A stretch of DNA of 45,830 bases from NCBI GenBank assembly GCA_003153435.1, contig PLYR01000061.1, positions 1 through 45,830 of the forward strand, written 5' to 3'. Below the pieces are notes generated by a model. It was given only the letters and a program-made list of their open reading frames with translations. It was not told the DNA's origin and did no database searches. Source of the DNA: Bacteroidota bacterium. GTDB lineage: Bacteria > Bacteroidota > Bacteroidia > Palsa-965. This document shows positions 35,242 through 45,414 of the stretch, piece by piece. The translations under genes were made by a program, and so were the position numbers. Numbering within the stretch: position 1 is the first letter of the stretch; the number at the start of each line of letters is the position of its first letter.

Positions 35242-37437
35242 ATGAAAAACATTTACGCACTGATTCTTGGAACGCTGTTGCTCGGAATGATTTCTCCGGA
35301 AGCTAAGGCCCAACTAGCTGCCTCCATCACAGGAACCACCAATGCTACCTGTTTCGGAGCCTGTAATGGAAACGCCACTGTTACGCCGACCGGCGGAACT
35401 CCTCCTTATACTTATTCCTGGTCACCCGGTGGTAATACCGCCGCAAAAGACTCAGGTCTGTGTGCGGGCACTTATACGGTAACTGTTACTGATGCACTGG
35501 CAGCGAATGTCAACCAGATTGCAACGATTAGTCAACCTACTTCAATTACGGTTAGCCCCACACAAGTCAATGTAGCATGTAGATATGCTTCCACCGGATC
35601 TGCCACTGGCCTTCCAGGGGGTGGAACTCCGCCTTATCTTTACTCATGGACAGGAGGAAGTATTGGCAGCGGACAAGGTACTCAGACTATAGGTGGGCTG
35701 GCCGCTGGAGGTTATACGTTAACTGTTACAGATAACATGGGTTGTACAAAACTACAGACCTACATCATAACACAACCTTCAAACCCTGATGTGCTTACAC
35801 CTTCTGTTAGCAATGAAACCTGTGGGGGAGGGAATGATGGAAGCGGTTATGTAACTGCCACCGGAAATGCTCCTTTTACTTATAACTGGACACCCACCGG
35901 AGGAACCGGGCCCGGCGCAACTTCCCTTATCGCAGGAACCTATACCTGTACAGTAACCGATAATTTTGCCTGTGCAACCCCGGTTGTAATGACCGTTTCC
36001 CAACCTCCTATCCTTACGCCAACGGTTACCTCCTACACCGATGTATTGTGTAACGGGGCTACGACAGGGGCTATTTCGGTTACTACTACTGGAGGTACAG
36101 GTACCACCATCCCCTATACCTATTCCTGGAATACAGCCCCTGTTCAATCCACTTCAAACGCAACTAACGTTCCAGCCGGAACTTATACTTGCACGGTAAC
36201 AGATTCTGTTGGATGTACTGCGACTGCGATACAGACCATTTCCCAGCCGGCAGTTCTGAATGTCACCCTTTCCGGAGCAAATGCCAGTTGTGGGGTCTGC
36301 GACGGTAGTGCAACAGCAAATGTGACGGGCGGTACTACACCTTACATTTATTCCTGGAGTCCGGGTGCACAGACCACTCAATCCACCAGCGCTCTCTGCG
36401 CAGGCACTTATAGCTGTCATGTAACAGATTCCTATGGCTGTATTCAGGTGGGCAATTTTACCATAACCCAGTTAGCATCACCTTATATTCATGGAACGGT
36501 TACGGCACAGGTATCCGGCGCTATCAACAGCGGAATGGTTTATCTTGTTAAATATGATACCGCCCTGCATCACCGTCAGGTCTTTCAGGATAGTACGGCT
36601 CTTACAGCCGGTGGGATGTATAGTTTTGCAAGCGAGCCTGCCGGTCAATATCTGGTGTATGCTGTTGCCAACAGTGCTACTTATCCGAACACCTTCAAAA
36701 CCTATTCCGGTCATACAACCGAATGGGATAGCGCAAACATTCAAAATCTGGTATGCCCAAGCAACGACACCGCTAATGTCGATATGTTCGAGTTGAATCC
36801 AACCGTCGGATCTGGATCCATCAGTGGTTATGTGAAACAGGGGATGGGTTATACCCCCCGTTACATAGGAACCGATCCGGGTACACTTGCTCCCGGTGAT
36901 CCTGTTCCGGGACTGGACGTAAACCTGGAACAACATCCCGGTGGAATCGTCGCTCATACTTCGACTGACGCAACCGGTAAATATCATTTTGGAACGCTCC
37001 CTCCCGGCACGTTTCAAGTCTACGTAGATATCCCTGGCCTCGGCATGACCGGAACCTATACCCGAACCATCACCACCAACGAGATGTTCCCGAATCTGGA
37101 TTACCATGTTGATTCCACTCATATTTATCCCGACTCTTCCGTTATAACCGGAATGGCCTCTCCGCAACAGGCAGTGAAGAGTCTGTCTCTTTCTCCAAAT
37201 CCTTTTAAGGAGCAGTTCCTCATCAACTATAGCCTTGGAAACCGTTCCGAAGTGAGCATGCAGCTCTTTGATGTACTTGGAAAAGAAGTAGGAGCATTGA
37301 TAAATAACCGACAGGAGGCCGGTGCTCACTCCTATTCATTCAGTGCAGCAGACTATGGACTTGCTCCCGGAATCTATATCCTGAAAGTGACTATGGAAGG
37401 AACAACCACTTCCAGAAAAATAGTGCATACCGAATAG
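35242..37437 (+). CDS. SprB-repeat surface protein with T9SS type A sorting domain
   Basis: A 731-residue exported protein with signal peptide (MKNIYALILGTLLLG, cleavage near AKAQ). Residues about 27-415 are five SprB-type repeats of roughly 75-85 residues, each running from a Cys-Asn/Asp-Gly motif through TPPYTYSWSPGG to AGTYTVTVTD and a closing ISQP. Then come two beta-sandwich regions with carboxypeptidase-regulatory-like features (YLVKYDTALHHRQVFQDST; GLDVNLEQHPGGIV with DATGKYHFGTLPPGTFQVYV) and a type A T9SS domain (LSLSPNPFKEQFLINYS, GIYILKVTMEGTTTSRK). SprB repeats occur in gliding adhesins. A hairpin terminator follows. Confidence 0.88.
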   Translation: MKNIYALILGTLLLGMISPEAKAQLAASITGTTNATCFGACNGNATVTPTGGTPPYTYSWSPGGNTAAKDSGLCAGTYTVTVTDALAANVNQIATISQPTSITVSPTQVNVACRYASTGSATGLPGGGTPPYLYSWTGGSIGSGQGTQTIGGLAAGGYTLTVTDNMGCTKLQTYIITQPSNPDVLTPSVSNETCGGGNDGSGYVTATGNAPFTYNWTPTGGTGPGATSLIAGTYTCTVTDNFACATPVVMTVSQPPILTPTVTSYTDVLCNGATTGAISVTTTGGTGTTIPYTYSWNTAPVQSTSNATNVPAGTYTCTVTDSVGCTATAIQTISQPAVLNVTLSGANASCGVCDGSATANVTGGTTPYIYSWSPGAQTTQSTSALCAGTYSCHVTDSYGCIQVGNFTITQLASPYIHGTVTAQVSGAINSGMVYLVKYDTALHHRQVFQDSTALTAGGMYSFASEPAGQYLVYAVANSATYPNTFKTYSGHTTEWDSANIQNLVCPSNDTANVDMFELNPTVGSGSISGYVKQGMGYTPRYIGTDPGTLAPGDPVPGLDVNLEQHPGGIVAHTSTDATGKYHFGTLPPGTFQVYVDIPGLGMTGTYTRTITTNEMFPNLDYHVDSTHIYPDSSVITGMASPQQAVKSLSLSPNPFKEQFLINYSLGNRSEVSMQLFDVLGKEVGALINNRQEAGAHSYSFSAADYGLAPGIYILKVTMEGTTTSRKIVHTE

Positions 37438-38483: not shown

Positions 38484-41129
38484 ATGAACACCATGAAGAA
38501 ACATCTCCGTCTCCTGCTCATCCTCACTTTCTTCTCCGGTTTGCTTTCTGCACAAACCGAGATCCCGGCTCGCTACCTTTTCTTTCCGGCGGAGAGCCTG
38601 AAAGGTTTTGACTTTCACTTCTGCCTTCAGGAACTTGGAGCTTATCATGCTATTCATCACCTGAATGATGCCGAAAAAGATCAGTTCATAAAGACCCATG
38701 AAGAGTCATTCATCCGTGAAAAAACCCATTTGATGCCGGCTTCTAAAGGGGAACAGTTAACATACAAAAATGTTCCTGCAGCTAAACTTACGAAAATACA
38801 GTCAGCCGGTTGTCATAACCTCGACTTTGAAACCGGTGATTATACCGGATGGGCCGGGGATATCGGTTACAATATGAATTCCGGAATGCCACTCACCTTA
38901 TGGGGAAGCGGGATCACTTCCCTGGGCACTGACGCAGCGGAGTCTTCCTGTTCGTATCATACCCTGGTCGACGCTTCTTCCGGCTTTGATCCGTATGGGT
39001 TCTTTCCAATGCTGGATCCAGGAGGAGGAAGTTATGCGGTAAGACTGGGAGGGGAAAAAATCAATACCTATAATACCAATTGCAGTTCGGGCTACGCGGA
39101 TATGGGTGCCATGCAAAATTACAGCGGTGGAGAAATCCTGAAACAGACTTTTCTGGTCACTCCTGCCAATGATCTTTTTACCTATAACTATGCGGTCGTC
39201 CTTCAAGATGGTGGACATCCTACCGGGGATCAACCTTATTTTGAAGTGGATGTACTCGACGGAACCGGCACTCCTATTCCATGTCTTCAATACTATATGC
39301 AATGCACCCAGGGTGTGCCTCCTGCCGGCTTTCAGACCTCGTTTTTCAATTCCGGTGTCTTCTATTGCCCATGGCAAGGCAACAGCCTGAATCTGATTCC
39401 TTATCTAGGCCAGAATGTAACGGTAGTCATCACCGCAGCTGGTTGTAATCAGGGAGGACATTTTGGATATGCTTATGTAGATGCCAATTGCGGACCCGCC
39501 GTATTAACTACTTCCTCTCCTGCGGTTTGCGCAGGTTCAACGATGACAATCTCTGCTCCTCCCAGCAGTCCTGGAACCACTTTCCAGTGGATTGAAATTC
39601 CATCAGGTTCTGGTATTCTGGGATCTACCACCGGTCCAACCATCACCATTGACCAAAGCGGGCATTATGAAGTAACCGTTTCCTATGGTGCCTGCAGCTA
39701 CAGCCTGGACACCACTATTACATTTTATACCTATCCGATCCTCACCGCTTCCGGTTCGAATGTAAAATGTTTCGGACGGAATGATGGAGTCGTCAGTGTA
39801 TCTGCTTCCGGAACCGGTCCCTTTACCTATTCCTGGTTCCCGGCAGTGAGCACGAGTGCTACGGCATCCGGACTGAGTCCAGGCACTTATTCTATTTCCG
39901 TCCAGACTGCTGCGGGATGTTCTTCCTCACAGTCAGTGACCATCACACAGCCACCTCCTCTGCTAGCTTCCGGATCAACCGTGAGTGGAACCTGCAGTCA
40001 GGATAACGGTTCCGCCGGTATTATTGTTCAAGGTGGAACAGGGCATTGTACCTACGCATGGACACCCGCTCCTGCCAATACGCAGACCAATGCCATCGTA
40101 ACAAATCTCCCTCCGGGTATTTATACCTGTATGGCCACTGACTCCAATGGCTGCACCATTCAGGTCATGGATACCGTCATCAATGCAGGAACACCTCCTC
40201 ATCCAACTATTTCGGCCAGCGGAACCACTGCTTTATGTTCCCCAGATTCGGTGGTACTCACTGCTACCGGAGCAAGCACCTATTCCTGGAGCACCGGTTC
40301 AACTGCAAGTTCTATCACCGTTCACAATGCAGGAGTCTATATAGTCTATGCAACCAGCACCTGTGGGACTGATTCTGCTAAACAACCCGTCACCCTCTCT
40401 CAGAAACCAAATCTCGTACTTACGGGAGGTGGCACTATCTGTCAAGGAGACATTGCAACCTTGAATGCAACCGGAGGAGGTACCTACCTTTGGAGCACAG
40501 GATCCAATCAGAACTCCATTGCGGTGACAACTTCCGGAATCTATACCGTAATCAGTTCTAACATTTGCGGAAGTGATACCGCTTCGGCCACGGTAGATGT
40601 AAGCACTGTCCAGGCCAGTTTCACTCCCAGTGTTTCCAGCGGTCTTCCTCCACTGAATGTTATTTTTACAGATGCAAGTTCTCTGAATGTCAATTCGTGG
40701 GATTGGTCCTTCGGAAACGGAGATACTGCTGCCAGTAAAAATTCCTCATTTACCTTTCACAACCCAGGAACCTACACAGTACTCTTATCCGTTACTAACG
40801 CCATCGGTTGCAAAGCAACGCATGAAACCGTGATTGTAGTAAATGAGATTCCATCCTGGATTGTAACACCCAATGTCTTCACTCCTAACGGGGACGGAAA
40901 CAATGATTTCTTCTATTTCGATTCCAAAGGGATCAGCAATTTTCATGCAACCATTTTCGATCGTTGGGGGGTTATCTTAAGTGAGCTTCTTGCTCCGGAA
41001 CAAGGTTGGGATGGAAGGACTATTGCCGGAGAACCGGCTTCTGACGGGACTTATTACTACCTCGTTCATGCTACAGGTGATGATGGGAAGGTTTATGATT
41101 TGAAAGGGTTTGTGATGTTGATGAGGTGA
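38484..41129 (+). CDS. Multidomain surface protein with SprB repeats, PKD domain and CHU_C (T9SS type B-like) C-terminus
   Basis: An 881-residue exported protein with a signal peptide ending near LLSAQTE (either Met1 or Met4 may be the start). Residues about 105-340 form a beta-rich region starting NLDFETGDYTGWAGDIG, like a ligand-binding lectin-type sandwich. Immunoglobulin-like and SprB-type modules follow (NVKCFGRNDGVVSVSASGTG, AGTYS/PGIYTCMATD motifs), then repeated TYSWSTG/TYLWSTG units and a PKD domain with WDWSFGNGDTAASKN. The end (VTPNVFTPNGDGNNDFF, IFDRWGVILSE, GWDGRT, DGTYYYLVHA, KGFVMLMR) is a gliding-motility-associated CHU_C domain. Probable large adhesin secreted by T9SS. Confidence 0.88.
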   Translation: MNTMKKHLRLLLILTFFSGLLSAQTEIPARYLFFPAESLKGFDFHFCLQELGAYHAIHHLNDAEKDQFIKTHEESFIREKTHLMPASKGEQLTYKNVPAAKLTKIQSAGCHNLDFETGDYTGWAGDIGYNMNSGMPLTLWGSGITSLGTDAAESSCSYHTLVDASSGFDPYGFFPMLDPGGGSYAVRLGGEKINTYNTNCSSGYADMGAMQNYSGGEILKQTFLVTPANDLFTYNYAVVLQDGGHPTGDQPYFEVDVLDGTGTPIPCLQYYMQCTQGVPPAGFQTSFFNSGVFYCPWQGNSLNLIPYLGQNVTVVITAAGCNQGGHFGYAYVDANCGPAVLTTSSPAVCAGSTMTISAPPSSPGTTFQWIEIPSGSGILGSTTGPTITIDQSGHYEVTVSYGACSYSLDTTITFYTYPILTASGSNVKCFGRNDGVVSVSASGTGPFTYSWFPAVSTSATASGLSPGTYSISVQTAAGCSSSQSVTITQPPPLLASGSTVSGTCSQDNGSAGIIVQGGTGHCTYAWTPAPANTQTNAIVTNLPPGIYTCMATDSNGCTIQVMDTVINAGTPPHPTISASGTTALCSPDSVVLTATGASTYSWSTGSTASSITVHNAGVYIVYATSTCGTDSAKQPVTLSQKPNLVLTGGGTICQGDIATLNATGGGTYLWSTGSNQNSIAVTTSGIYTVISSNICGSDTASATVDVSTVQASFTPSVSSGLPPLNVIFTDASSLNVNSWDWSFGNGDTAASKNSSFTFHNPGTYTVLLSVTNAIGCKATHETVIVVNEIPSWIVTPNVFTPNGDGNNDFFYFDSKGISNFHATIFDRWGVILSELLAPEQGWDGRTIAGEPASDGTYYYLVHATGDDGKVYDLKGFVMLMR

Positions 41130-41164: not shown

Positions 41165-42676
41165 CTAAGCCTTTGTTTGCTGAACTAAATAGTCCGAAAC
41201 TAATCTATTCTTATCCACCTTATGACTGATATTGTACGGAAACTCCGAAACAACAACAATATCACCAGGGATCATATAGGAGGGCAATTTCTTTTCAAGT
41301 AATAAGTAAAGTTCCTGTTTGATCGGTTCAGGATCTGCTTCTTTTGATAGGATCACAAAACTGATTATCTTTTTAACCTCTGAGTTTCTTTTGAGAGCAA
41401 CGGTTGAAGCATCTGCAATTCCGGGATAGTTAAGAATATGAGCGTTAATTTCATCAAGCTCTATCCGAAAACCATGCATTTTGACCTGATCATCATTTCT
41501 TCCCAGAAAGAAAAAAATACCCTCTTCCAGGTAAGCCTGATCTCCCGTACGAAAAGCGCGTTTGCCCTTATGAATAAAAAACTTCTTCGAATTCAGGCTT
41601 TCATTTTTCAGATAACCGATAGATACATGATCACCCGAAATAATCAGCTCTCCCTCTTTCTGACTAGGGTCACTTTTCTCAATATACAACTCACTCCCCG
41701 GCATAGCATAACCGATGGGCAATGAATTGTATTTTTCTATAATCTCATCCGTCAAAACCATAAGCGAGGTGGCCACTGTGGCTTCCGTGGGCCCGTAAGC
41801 ATTATATAACCGGGCTTGGGGAAACTTGGTACGAAGAAGACGTGCGGTGCGATTGGGGAACTCCTCCCCGATCAGTAAAAAGGTGTTGATTTGGCCCAGT
41901 ATTACTTCTGAAAAAGCAGGGTTTCGTAAATACAAATAGACAAATGAAGGAGTGGAATTCCAGATGCTGCATTGATAATCGGAGATGCGTTTGATAAACT
42001 GTTCCTGATCCCGGCAAACCTCAGCCGAATTCAATACGAGCGAACCGCCCAACGCAAACGCACCCAACAGGTCATAAAGAGAGATATCAAATGTAAATGG
42101 GGCCTGATTCATAAATACATCTTCCACCTTAAAACCATAATCCCTCAGCAACCAAGCTATGAATGTTTGCACAGCCTGAGTGGTAATCTGCACCCCTTTG
42201 GGCTCCCCGGTAGAACCGGAAGTAAATAGAATATACTGCAAGGGATCTTCCTTACTTCCATAAATCCGGCCCTCGTAATCCGGTTTGGTATAAATTCTGT
42301 GGGCTCCGTGGGGGTTAATCATTACCGGTAATTGAACCAGAGATTCTTCCTCACCACAGTGAATCATAACCTGAGAACCCGTAATGGAAGCAATTTTCCG
42401 AATCCGCTCTTCAGGATACATCGTGTCTACCGGCACATAAGGGATAGAAGCATGAATACAAGCAAGCATGGCGACTGGAAAGTATTTTTCCTTATGACCA
42501 TAAATAATGATTGAATGACCAGTGGGGATACTCAGCTTTTTAAAAACGGCAGAAAGCTCTTCTGTTTTCCGTTTTAAATCGGCCCAACTCAGATCTCCAT
42601 CACTTCCTGCTACGGCAAGCTTCCCGGGAAGGATCTGCATTTCAACAAACTGTTTATGTTCGAAATTGTACTTCAT
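41165..42676 (-). CDS. dltA: DltA-like adenylating ligase (amino acid to carrier protein)
   Basis: A 503-residue AMP-forming ligase, the same length as Gram-positive DltA, that should activate an amino acid with ATP and load it on the phosphopantetheine arm of the DltC-like carrier encoded in the same operon. Motifs: LFTSGSTGEPKGV (150-162), NQAPFTFDISLYDLLGA (190-206) with Asp197 at the position that binds the substrate amino group, YNAYGPTEAT (291-300), FRTGD, GRNDDQVKMHGFRIELDEI and the C-terminal lysine region ISHKVDKNRL. The Cys269 linked to D-Ala chiral selection in DltA is Ile269 here (LLIGEE). Last gene of the operon, 3 bases after the MBOAT gene. Substrate: an amino acid, D-Ala not certain. 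Confidence 0.85.
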   Translation of the reverse strand: MKYNFEHKQFVEMQILPGKLAVAGSDGDLSWADLKRKTEELSAVFKKLSIPTGHSIIIYGHKEKYFPVAMLACIHASIPYVPVDTMYPEERIRKIASITGSQVMIHCGEEESLVQLPVMINPHGAHRIYTKPDYEGRIYGSKEDPLQYILFTSGSTGEPKGVQITTQAVQTFIAWLLRDYGFKVEDVFMNQAPFTFDISLYDLLGAFALGGSLVLNSAEVCRDQEQFIKRISDYQCSIWNSTPSFVYLYLRNPAFSEVILGQINTFLLIGEEFPNRTARLLRTKFPQARLYNAYGPTEATVATSLMVLTDEIIEKYNSLPIGYAMPGSELYIEKSDPSQKEGELIISGDHVSIGYLKNESLNSKKFFIHKGKRAFRTGDQAYLEEGIFFFLGRNDDQVKMHGFRIELDEINAHILNYPGIADASTVALKRNSEVKKIISFVILSKEADPEPIKQELYLLLEKKLPSYMIPGDIVVVSEFPYNISHKVDKNRLVSDYLVQQTKA

Positions 42677-42679
42677 CGA

Positions 42680-43843
42680 TTACAACAAGGGGCAGCGTCC
42701 GCTGAAAATGTATAAAGCAAATGCCGCGAGGTTAATCATGATAAATATGCTCAGGTATTTTACGGTCAATTCATTCAGTTTCCCAAATACTACATCCCTC
42801 CCCTGTTTCCGGCAGTTGACCACATAGGTGTTATGAACCGCCGAAAAGATTCCAAATAACAAACCACTCAGGATAAAATTAATTTTGAAACCATTCCAGC
42901 AACCCATGAGCAGGAAGGTTAACACCAGGGCCGTATTCTGTCTCAACAACGGGTAGGCTTTCAGGCCTTTGCGCCGTGTGAAATACATATATAAAGGGGT
43001 GAAAAAATAATCCCTCAGCCATTCGCCCAGGGTGATATGGAATCGCCTCCAAAAATCCTGAGGATTGACTGAAACAAAAGGGTTCGTAAAATTAACAGGC
43101 ACTTCCATTCCCATCATCTCTGCCACCCCAATGGCCATGGAAGAATAACCGGCAAAATCAAAAAACAAGTACACGTAATAAGCATACATATCACTGGCCA
43201 TATGCAACAGGAGTTTGCTTTCAGGGGGATGTGTGTTAAGCCAATACCGGTCAACCACTTCGGCGAGTATATATTTGAAAACAATGCCCTTCACCACTTT
43301 GTTCCAGCCTGAAATAAATTTTTCACTGTTCATTTGCATGAATCCTTTTTCCTCCGAGGATTTGAAATGTGCATACCGGTCAATCGGGCCGATAAGCAAG
43401 GTGGGGGTAAATGCCAGAAAGTTAAAATACGTTATCGGGTTGGACATTGCATCACCAGGGGCTTTGTCCATATAATAACTCATAATCCGGAAACTCGCAT
43501 AAGATAACCCGGCAAAAGAAATCAAACTGTTTAATTCGAAGGGATAAAACTCAAAGCGTATATCTGCCTTCACCAGCAGCATGGGTAATAACAATAAAAG
43601 AATCCCCCAGATCTTTTTTTTGAATTTGAAAACATTCAAGGCTAGTGCCGTTGCGCCATAGGAAAAGATAATCAGAAACAGGAAATGCCAGGGCTTTGGA
43701 TAAACAAGAAATAGAAACAAAGCATTCAGAAAGAAAAGTGCATAATTGTAATGACGGGAAGCAAATATTTTCCTGACCACCGAAAGGAAGACCAGAAAGA
43801 TCAGGATGAAAAAGAAAAAATCAAAGGAACTGAATGGGAGCAT
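42680..43843 (-). CDS. dltB: DltB-like MBOAT membrane O-acyltransferase
   Basis: A 387-residue polytopic protein with about ten or more hydrophobic helices. DltB/MBOAT hallmarks: PTLLIGPIDRY (147-157), FFDFAGYSSMAIGVAEMMG (227-245) and DFWRRFHITLGEWLRDYFF (263-281) with His269 matching Streptococcus DltB His289. The second conserved position, His336 of DltB in the WHG motif, is Asn317 here (MGCWNG, codon AAT), a striking deviation. In Dlt systems this protein moves the acyl group from the carrier protein across the inner membrane. The gene starts 2 bases after the microprotein gene and ends 3 bases before the ligase gene. Confidence 0.85.
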   Translation of the reverse strand: MLPFSSFDFFFFILIFLVFLSVVRKIFASRHYNYALFFLNALFLFLVYPKPWHFLFLIIFSYGATALALNVFKFKKKIWGILLLLLPMLLVKADIRFEFYPFELNSLISFAGLSYASFRIMSYYMDKAPGDAMSNPITYFNFLAFTPTLLIGPIDRYAHFKSSEEKGFMQMNSEKFISGWNKVVKGIVFKYILAEVVDRYWLNTHPPESKLLLHMASDMYAYYVYLFFDFAGYSSMAIGVAEMMGMEVPVNFTNPFVSVNPQDFWRRFHITLGEWLRDYFFTPLYMYFTRRKGLKAYPLLRQNTALVLTFLLMGCWNGFKINFILSGLLFGIFSAVHNTYVVNCRKQGRDVVFGKLNELTVKYLSIFIMINLAAFALYIFSGRCPLL

Positions 43844-43845
43844 TC

Positions 43846-43989
43846 TTAAAACTGTTGGTAAACAAACTGAATGGCTGAATGAGTTTTGTTATTCGGATGC
43901 GTGTTGCCTGGTCCATATAATATGTATAAGGCTAATGCAATACCCGTATAAAGAATCAAGTTGCCAAAGAATCGTTTCAGGTCTTTCAT
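43846..43989 (-). CDS. dltX: DltX-like membrane microprotein (47 residues)
   Basis: A short ORF exactly filling the space between the DltD-like and DltB-like genes: ATG at 43989, one base after the upstream stop, and TAA at 43848-43846, two bases before the MBOAT ATG. The translation has a basic cytoplasmic start (MKDLKRFF), one hydrophobic helix (about residues 8-25, LILYTGIALALYILYG), a short polar stretch and the C-terminus AIQFVYQQF. The last six residues fit FxYxxF, the C-terminal motif of Gram-positive DltX, whose Tyr is reported to accept the acyl group on the outer side of the membrane. Length (DltX about 50 residues), predicted topology, operon position and motif all agree. Identified by reading, not by search. 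Confidence 0.85.
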   Translation of the reverse strand: MKDLKRFFGNLILYTGIALALYILYGPGNTHPNNKTHSAIQFVYQQF

Positions 43990-43990
43990 A

Positions 43991-45181
43991 TTATTCAATC
44001 AAATGATAATTTTTCGCAATAAAATGATCCACTTCATACCATCCGTAGTCGGCCATGTGCATAATATCCGCTAGCGAACTTTTTTCATATTTCGCAGGAT
44101 CTGAAACATATAGATTTAAGTAGGGGAATTTTAATTCTTTGATTTCCCCGGTGATAACATCAATGACTGGATCCAGTTCGGAAAGATTCTTGTAATACAA
44201 TGGATTCAAAGGGGAGATAATGAATGAGGCTCGTACATCTTTTTCTTTCAAAAGATGGAGCAACATTTTAAAGTCCTTCAGTTCCTGATTACAACTTACC
44301 GATACCGGAGCAATTTTGCCAGTACCTCCATGGATGTAGGTCCTGTAATAATCATCATTGATTCCCATAGTATTGGTAGTAGCCGCATTTGATGAGTGCT
44401 GTTTGGCCACACGGAACAGGCTATCCCAATTTAATGCAAAAGGTACTGGTATAATACTGCCTATATTAATTCTCTTATCCGAAGGTTGAGAGGAAATGGT
44501 TCGTCGAAGAAGAAGCATTTTTTCACCGATGAACAAAGGAAGGAAGCAAACTTTATGAACTGGGCTTTTGGAAGCTTTATACTCAAAATTCATGAGTTTA
44601 ATCGGAATGTTTGGAGCATTAAACTCCGAGTACATTCCTGATATCCGTTGTTCTTCATATGCCTTCAAATCTGAATCTATCGTATCGCAAACAATCTTGC
44701 TTAGGAAACGCTCAGAATTGAATTCCAAAAACACTTCCGAAGAGGTCCCGGCGCTGTTTTTTCCTTCAAACCAACCTGGAGAAATGATGATTACAACATC
44801 AGCATCATGGAGTCGTTCTTTATTCGCAAGCAATTGGCTATAGATTGAAAAACACTGATTACCGGCATGTCCTATGGCCCTCACCTGCGTATTGAAATAT
44901 TTTGAAATAAACCGATAGGGGATCGCTTCCGAAGGGGTACTCAATTCTGAAGATCCAAGGAGATAAATTACAGGACGGGAAGATCCGCTCCCTAAAAATT
45001 GATCTTCATATTCAACCCGGTCCTTGAAATAAGGGATGTAGTCAAAAGCAGGCTCAGGTGTCACAACAGAACTTCTCGAATGCCAGAGCAAGGAGCTAAA
45101 TTTTTCATTTGAACTGAGCCAGCTAATGGTAAGAAGCGCAATTACGAAAGGAAGTAGATAAACCAGAGCAATCTTCCTCAA
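43991..45181 (-). CDS. dltD: DltD-like SGNH-type periplasmic acyltransferase
   Basis: A 396-residue protein with one N-terminal membrane anchor (KIALVYLLPFVIALLTISWL) and a periplasmic domain. The block YLLGSSELSTPSEAIPYRF holds the DltD nucleophile motif (GSSE, Ser77/Ser78), ADVVIIISPGWF is the second DltD block, and the C-terminal DIMHMADYGW provides an Asp372-x-x-His375 pair, the spacing of the DltD catalytic Asp and His. In Gram-positives DltD makes the final transfer of D-Ala to lipoteichoic acid; here the acceptor must be a different envelope polymer or lipid. It starts 5 bases after the carrier gene and is followed one base later by the microprotein. Confidence 0.8.
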   Translation of the reverse strand: MRKIALVYLLPFVIALLTISWLSSNEKFSSLLWHSRSSVVTPEPAFDYIPYFKDRVEYEDQFLGSGSSRPVIYLLGSSELSTPSEAIPYRFISKYFNTQVRAIGHAGNQCFSIYSQLLANKERLHDADVVIIISPGWFEGKNSAGTSSEVFLEFNSERFLSKIVCDTIDSDLKAYEEQRISGMYSEFNAPNIPIKLMNFEYKASKSPVHKVCFLPLFIGEKMLLLRRTISSQPSDKRINIGSIIPVPFALNWDSLFRVAKQHSSNAATTNTMGINDDYYRTYIHGGTGKIAPVSVSCNQELKDFKMLLHLLKEKDVRASFIISPLNPLYYKNLSELDPVIDVITGEIKELKFPYLNLYVSDPAKYEKSSLADIMHMADYGWYEVDHFIAKNYHLIE

Positions 45182-45186
45182 GTAAA

Positions 45187-45414
45187 TTAGAGTGTTTGAA
45201 TGGTAGAAGTCATCAAATCGATCGTGTCCAGATGTTCCGGGTTGACAAGATGTTGAGGTATTTGTTTCCCGATTTTTTCTTCAATGGAGACAAGCAGGTC
45301 AACCACAATAATTGAATCCAGTAGCTTAGATTTGATTAGAGATTCATCGAAGCTGACCTTCTTGAATATCAAGCCTCCTATTTCCTGCTGAATGAATATC
45401 TTAAGTGCCTCCAT
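45187..45414 (-). CDS. dltC: DltC-like acyl carrier protein
   Basis: A 75-residue acidic helical carrier protein. The phosphopantetheine site is Ser34 in LLDSIIVVDLLVSIEEKIG, where the usual DSL is DSI. Size and the LLDS motif fit DltC-type carriers, which hold the amino acid activated by DltA and present it to DltB. It is the first gene of the five-gene operon, reversed relative to the Gram-positive order dltX-A-B-C-D (here C-D-X-B-A). A role as a general fatty acid ACP is unlikely given the context. Confidence 0.85.
   Translation of the reverse strand: MEALKIFIQQEIGGLIFKKVSFDESLIKSKLLDSIIVVDLLVSIEEKIGKQIPQHLVNPEHLDTIDLMTSTIQTL

Follow-up and report, generated by a model that had tools for sequence, protein, structure and literature searches.

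A dlt-like operon and its small ORF

The window, that is, the whole 45,830-nucleotide stretch of Bacteroidota DNA analysed here (assembly GCA_003153435.1, contig PLYR01000061.1), carries homologues of DltA, DltB, DltC, and DltD, and encoded together with them is a small protein, designated X (Table 1). The X ORF occupies the 147-base gap between the stop codon of dltD (43991) and the start of dltB (43843); it opens with ATG, runs for 47 codons to a stop, and encodes the protein MKDLKRFFGNLILYTGIALALYILYGPGNTHPNNKTHSAIQFVYQQF, with Lys/Arg residues close to its N-terminus, a single hydrophobic helix, and the terminal hexapeptide FVYQQF. Only 1 base separates the ORF from the dltD stop and 2 from the dltB ATG, so that the three genes follow closely on one another in a head-to-tail arrangement. 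The initial annotation had described this gap-filling ORF, its basic N-terminus, helix, terminal motif and Tyr44 directly from the sequence, and the description stands. X has the features of a one-helix protein of about 40-65 aa with a basic N-terminus, the helix being that seen in AF2 models of its relatives.

Table 1. Features of the operon, with their positions in the window.
Feature	Position	Strand	Evidence
DltA-like adenylation enzyme	41165..42676	minus	TIGR01734, phmmer
DltB-like MBOAT, 387 aa, without a C-terminal motif of its own	42680..43843	minus	TIGR04091, 6bug alignment
DltB Ser326, at S. thermophilus Tyr345	codon 42866-42868	minus	alignment to 6bug
DltB Asn317, at S. thermophilus His336	codon 42893-42895	minus	alignment to 6bug
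DltB His269, equivalent to S. thermophilus His289	codon 43037-43039	minus	alignment to 6bug
Putative DltX-type microprotein X, 47 aa	43846..43989	minus	ORF and translation, conservation, dN/dS, profile match
Tyr44 codon of X	43858-43860	minus	
DltD-like SGNH transferase	43991..45181	minus	PF04914 158 bits, alignments
DltC-like carrier, conserved D-S at the expected phosphopantetheine site	45187..45414	minus	weak carrier matches, synteny, alignment

The DltD-like protein possesses both the GSSEL nucleophile block and the D-x-x-H block (as DIMH) of an SGNH enzyme; the nucleophile Ser is kept in all of the aligned proteins, and the Asp-His pair wherever the alignment reaches, as well as in the Beta loci, which were read directly. 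The DltB-like protein scores 55.6 bits with the Pfam MBOAT model, above its cut-off of 27, and 238 bits with TIGR04091, below the equivalog cut-off of 375. With the DltA-like enzyme, the TIGR01734 score is 406 bits, below the cut-off of 560, and phmmer matches it to B. cereus DltA (3fcc) at an E of 2e-91. The equivalent of DltA Asp197 is kept in its relatives. Cys269 of the B. cereus enzyme favours D-Ala (PMC4176424). At the equivalent position the window enzyme has Ile, Bacteroidota enzymes have Met, Ile, Ala or Cys, and those of Enterobacterales frequently have Ile. Because this position varies, the acyl group is uncertain, and the window enzyme may activate an amino acid other than D-Ala.

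An ORF as short as X, with no Pfam or NCBIfam model over its cut-off, could be supposed to be non-coding or to have arisen by chance in a short intergenic gap, but this is refuted by its conservation, its dN/dS values and the chance expectation. Of the small ORFs (25-120 codons) in the window, X alone ends in FxYxxF, and first-order Markov copies yield on average 0.08 such ORFs per window. Its dN/dS was 0.03-0.25 in all six pairs for which dS was computable (dS being saturated in two further pairs), with synonymous changes far outnumbering replacements. Every relative, moreover, has the same end at the same place. X is a real gene under purifying selection. It had initially been termed hidden, which is apt insofar as annotation pipelines leave the protein unnamed or miss it, so that a name is given to it here; the term does not hold everywhere, as PGAP calls the Enterobacter orthologue, listing it as an unnamed hypothetical protein.

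Distribution and kinship of X

The ORF and its terminal motif were sought in orthologous gaps, a test that had been named in advance as able to refute the initial reading, and the reading survived it. A search with DltD of 395 genomes of the class gave 12 strong loci, the window included, and in 12 of 12 a separate ORF of 46-65 residues ending in F[VI]YQQF was present at the same place, the dltD-dltB gap. The order dltC-D-X-B-A was seen in eleven larger regions fetched from other class genomes, among them one (L030) in which the first search scored no DltC. The operon is patchy: among eight other genomes from the family only one has a strong DltD match, and three incomplete genomes from the genus have none.

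A DltB-alignment scan of named genomes gave 80 loci, comprising three from Firmicutes and 77 from Gram-negative bacteria: Bacteroidota and one Chlorobiota MAG, Aliarcobacter, Sulfurovum, Achromobacter/Bordetella/Paralcaligenes, and Enterobacterales, the last including Dickeya, Pectobacterium, and Photorhabdus. The tail of X lies just 5' of dltB in 76 of the 77 Gram-negative loci, which is all 76 that are testable, the contig end cutting inside dltB at the other (L063); the count includes a contig (L064) that carries only the last nine codons of X. In three Photorhabdus loci, the tail reads KYEYQQF. X is instead found 5' of dltA in the three loci from Firmicutes, and annotated records of Enterococcus and Staphylococcus show the same arrangement. 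The gene order is thus C-D-X-B-A here, D-X-B-A-C in Enterobacterales, and X-A-B-C-D in Firmicutes, and the initial claim of the same terminal motif in a reordered operon of a distant phylum was borne out. Across 41 aligned X proteins, the motif Tyr and the final Phe are invariant; a helix Tyr and the motif's first Phe are each conserved in at least 90%.

The assignment of X to a family depended on the method of comparison. Profile-profile alignment (hhalign) of X with five Firmicutes DltX proteins gave a probability of 89.3 and an E of 2.1e-6 over 34 columns, with both helix and motif aligned. With the Pfam DltX model (PF12459), the window protein scored 11 bits, below the cut-off of 25; the model reached 14 of the 41 X proteins at E <= 1 (best E 4.6e-4) and, over 15 whole genomes, its cut-off was passed in two Firmicutes only. 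NCBIfam models gave no match to X, and a direct search of P0001 against PDB sequences returned a chance match only. Given its operon company, the extreme C-terminal FxYxxF with invariant Tyr, and the profile-profile match, X is called here a putative DltX-type shuttle, as had been proposed, and homologous to DltX; it is kept outside PF12459 as that family is drawn, because it falls below the curated cut-off despite the profile-profile homology.

Like X, the DltX of Firmicutes (PF12459) is a protein of about 50 aa encoded in the dlt operon, with a basic N-terminus, one helix, and an FxYxxF end. The two differ in that the Firmicutes gene precedes dltA whereas that of X lies between dltD and dltB, in the longer periplasmic linker of Bacteroidota X, in the tail (mostly xYQQF or xYQKF in X, FIYN- in Firmicutes), and in the Asn-type DltB with which X works. 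A DltX of the same topology and without sequence similarity was mentioned for Gram-negative species in 2017 (PMC5541007), a remark that the enterobacterial X proteins found here fit; the similarity not seen there is shown here by profile comparison. The available part of that paper names no member from Bacteroidota or Campylobacterota and draws no link to an altered DltB active site. The separate-microprotein form of the MBOAT/SGNH relay is hereby extended to both of these phyla.

Several individual loci deserve mention. A complete dltD-X-B-A-C operon (L187; NZ_CP071862.1, 137953-146071) resides in Enterobacter cloacae on a conjugative plasmid (IncFIB/IncHI1A), flanked by the IS elements IS1, IS5/IS903B, and IS26, and similar DltB genes occur on Klebsiella plasmids; the dlt operon is mobile in enterics. 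Complete E. coli genomes held no DNA similar to the enteric operon, and a scan of IMG/VR with DltD found no relative. A record titled Chryseobacterium sp. 18061 (L096) has an Enterobacterales-type operon, placed by the tree among those of Enterobacteriaceae, reflecting either a recent transfer or an assembly that is mislabelled or contaminated. On a Sulfurovum MAG contig (L067, 255-2875), two tandem DltD-like genes are followed by X and DltB, and at another locus (L054, 2361-5158) the order is dltD-C-X-B-A, the carrier gene standing between dltD and X while X still adjoins dltB.

The active site of Gram-negative DltB

The AF2 model of a Bacteroidota relative matches 6bug (Foldseek E 4.5e-18) and also aligns to 8jem. 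The window protein shares with the Firmicutes DltB of these structures (TIGR04091) its fold, a carrier-protein partner, the equivalent of His289, and the lack of a fused motif. The catalytic His of MBOATs, however, is missing from it. One paper describes this residue as universal among MBOAT proteins and as necessary in DltB (PMC12148441), and another gives His336 of S. thermophilus DltB as invariant (PMC11035591). At its column (StDltB His336, CjPatA His315), Asn was found in 89 of 89 Gram-negative DltB sequences, a set that includes some duplicates between collections, and His in 62 of 62 controls made up of Firmicutes DltB, other Firmicutes MBOATs, and motif-fused Bacteroidota MBOATs. The S. 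thermophilus Tyr345 is likewise replaced: Ser occupies this column in all 89 Gram-negative sequences, Tyr in seven of seven Firmicutes DltB, and mostly Trp elsewhere. A 90-row tree, calculated by a quick method without the His/Asn column and with SH-aLRT support only, shows a single change of state: the Asn branch (support 99) and Firmicutes DltB (99) are sister groups, which jointly separate from other MBOATs (100).

The change from His to Asn, which the initial annotation passed over, is a more surprising feature than X itself. Since the relay had been published and a Gram-negative DltX had been mentioned (PMC5541007), X alone represents only a further branch of a known scheme, whereas the operons described here carry a natural and fixed replacement of His by Asn and of Tyr by Ser at an MBOAT active site. 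A paper of 2023 reportedly defined the acyl shuttle. In the open literature searched, whose scope did not extend to that paper (doi 10.1038/s41564-023-01411-0), no mention was found of the Asn/Ser change or of a Bacteroidota DltX.

With Asn at the catalytic position, the retained His269 or another route must serve as base, and the first transfer lacks a chemical explanation once the reportedly required His is gone. The likeliest base in the Asn branch would be the retained His (His269 in the window), the equivalent of which is invariant over the 89 sequences. Two other sources of compensation were considered and rejected. A relocated catalytic His could be sought at window His337 (His in 86 of 89, Tyr in three), but this residue is 20 positions past Asn317, in the next long helix; and within the hexapeptide of X, no residue cleanly separates the Asn branch, the Gln at Y+2 being common in fused MBOATs too.

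ACAT1, DGAT1, and PORCN carry an Asn/His pair. On balance, the arrangement in the Asn branch would be its mirror image, with the His/Asn pair exchanged such that His sits at the helix tip and Asn in TMH7, Tyr345 replaced by Ser, and acyl-Tyr transfer proceeding without the supposedly universal His and always with a separate DltX that provides the acceptor Tyr; this reading is favoured with some reserve. Because recent papers treat the His as universal and catalytic, the Asn branch allows the identity of the base in MBOATs to be tested directly. In S. thermophilus DltB, the inhibitor m-AMSA lies between His289 and His336 and is bonded to Tyr345 (PMC11035591), contacts that would not carry over unchanged to the Gram-negative enzymes.

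The same replacements could be taken to mean that the Asn-type DltB is a mere passage, with the carrier arm handing the acyl group straight to DltD and X persisting as a remnant: a residue reported as invariant and required (PMC11035591, PMC12148441) is Asn in every one of these sequences, and Tyr345 is gone with it. Such a loss of function is very improbable, as Asn317, His269, and Ser326 are each invariant over the 89 sequences, in the manner expected of a selected active site, purifying selection acts on X, and a dltB mutant of Dickeya dadantii has a phenotype, being more sensitive to polymyxin and surviving it less well (PMC3544676). In Bordetella pertussis, the dra locus reportedly adds D-alanine to a component of the outer membrane (PMC4448142). 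Both the Asn and X are present in the loci read here from Dickeya undicola and Bordetella, matched to those two studies by genus, and the Asn branch of DltB is probably functional.

A putative acyl-Tyr relay

In the Dlt system, DltX carries D-Ala between DltB and DltD on the Tyr of its C-terminal FXYXXF, and PatA acetylates itself at the Tyr of the motif fused to it (PMC12148441). An acyl-Tyr relay as a core part of MBOAT/SGNH pathways, which the initial annotation had also argued for, was already concluded in that work, where pathways of this kind other than Dlt were noted to have no DltX-like microprotein. Two other MBOATs of the same genome (L190, L191) have the motif WHG and a terminal IYLQF or FIYQQF of their own; DltB lacks both, the tail being provided by X. 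Fused-shuttle MBOATs (PatA, AlgI type; L190, L191) resemble X in ending in the same hexapeptide with Tyr, and in published systems they have SGNH partners. They differ from it in carrying the motif on two extra helices rather than on a separate protein, and from Gram-negative DltB in keeping the His (29 of 29 Bacteroidota examples) in place of Asn. PatA uses acetyl-CoA, and these fused pathways have no carrier protein (PMC12148441), whereas the dlt operon encodes a DltC-like carrier.

X is very probably the Gram-negative counterpart of DltX, an acyl shuttle relaying through Tyr44 in an Asn-type DltB. The acylation of Tyr and the order of transfers are proposed by analogy with the work on Gram-positive Dlt and PatA. 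The N-terminus of X would lie in the cytoplasm, as judged from charge only, and its single helix would cross the inner membrane to place FVYQQF at the mouth of DltB on the periplasmic side. The DltA-like enzyme would activate an amino acid and load it onto the DltC-like carrier, from which DltB would pass the acyl group through the membrane onto Tyr44, with His269 or another route as base in place of the catalytic His. The acyl-Tyr tail would then swing to the DltD serine, and DltD would esterify an envelope polymer.

In two AF2 runs, for which natural in-frame X-stop-DltB reads of relatives were used with the stops read as Gly (49 and 40 rows), DltB and the helix of X were modelled with confidence, and the motif and linker with pLDDT < 50. 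A well-modelled helix with a poorly modelled motif is also what might be seen if X were only a tether that joins DltB to DltD, its aromatic motif docking in DltB and its Tyr never acylated; nor, with Asn in DltB for the catalytic His, is acylation of the Tyr by the known chemistry assured. Tethering alone, however, gives no reason for the Tyr, which together with the final Phe is invariant in X while the rest of the protein drifts, and PatA is acylated on this same hexapeptide, which in DltX has been named the shuttle (PMC12148441). A role confined to tethering is accordingly considered unlikely, and an acyl shuttle is the preferred function of X.

The Gram-negative hosts of these operons are cells free of teichoic acids. 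A scan of the neighbouring genes for those of an acceptor polymer found none common to the loci, and the genes flanking the operon vary between genomes. In the window, the region is flanked by two large repeat-domain proteins (35242-37437 and 38484-41129), the C-terminal tails of which, by eye, resemble type IX secretion sorting signals.
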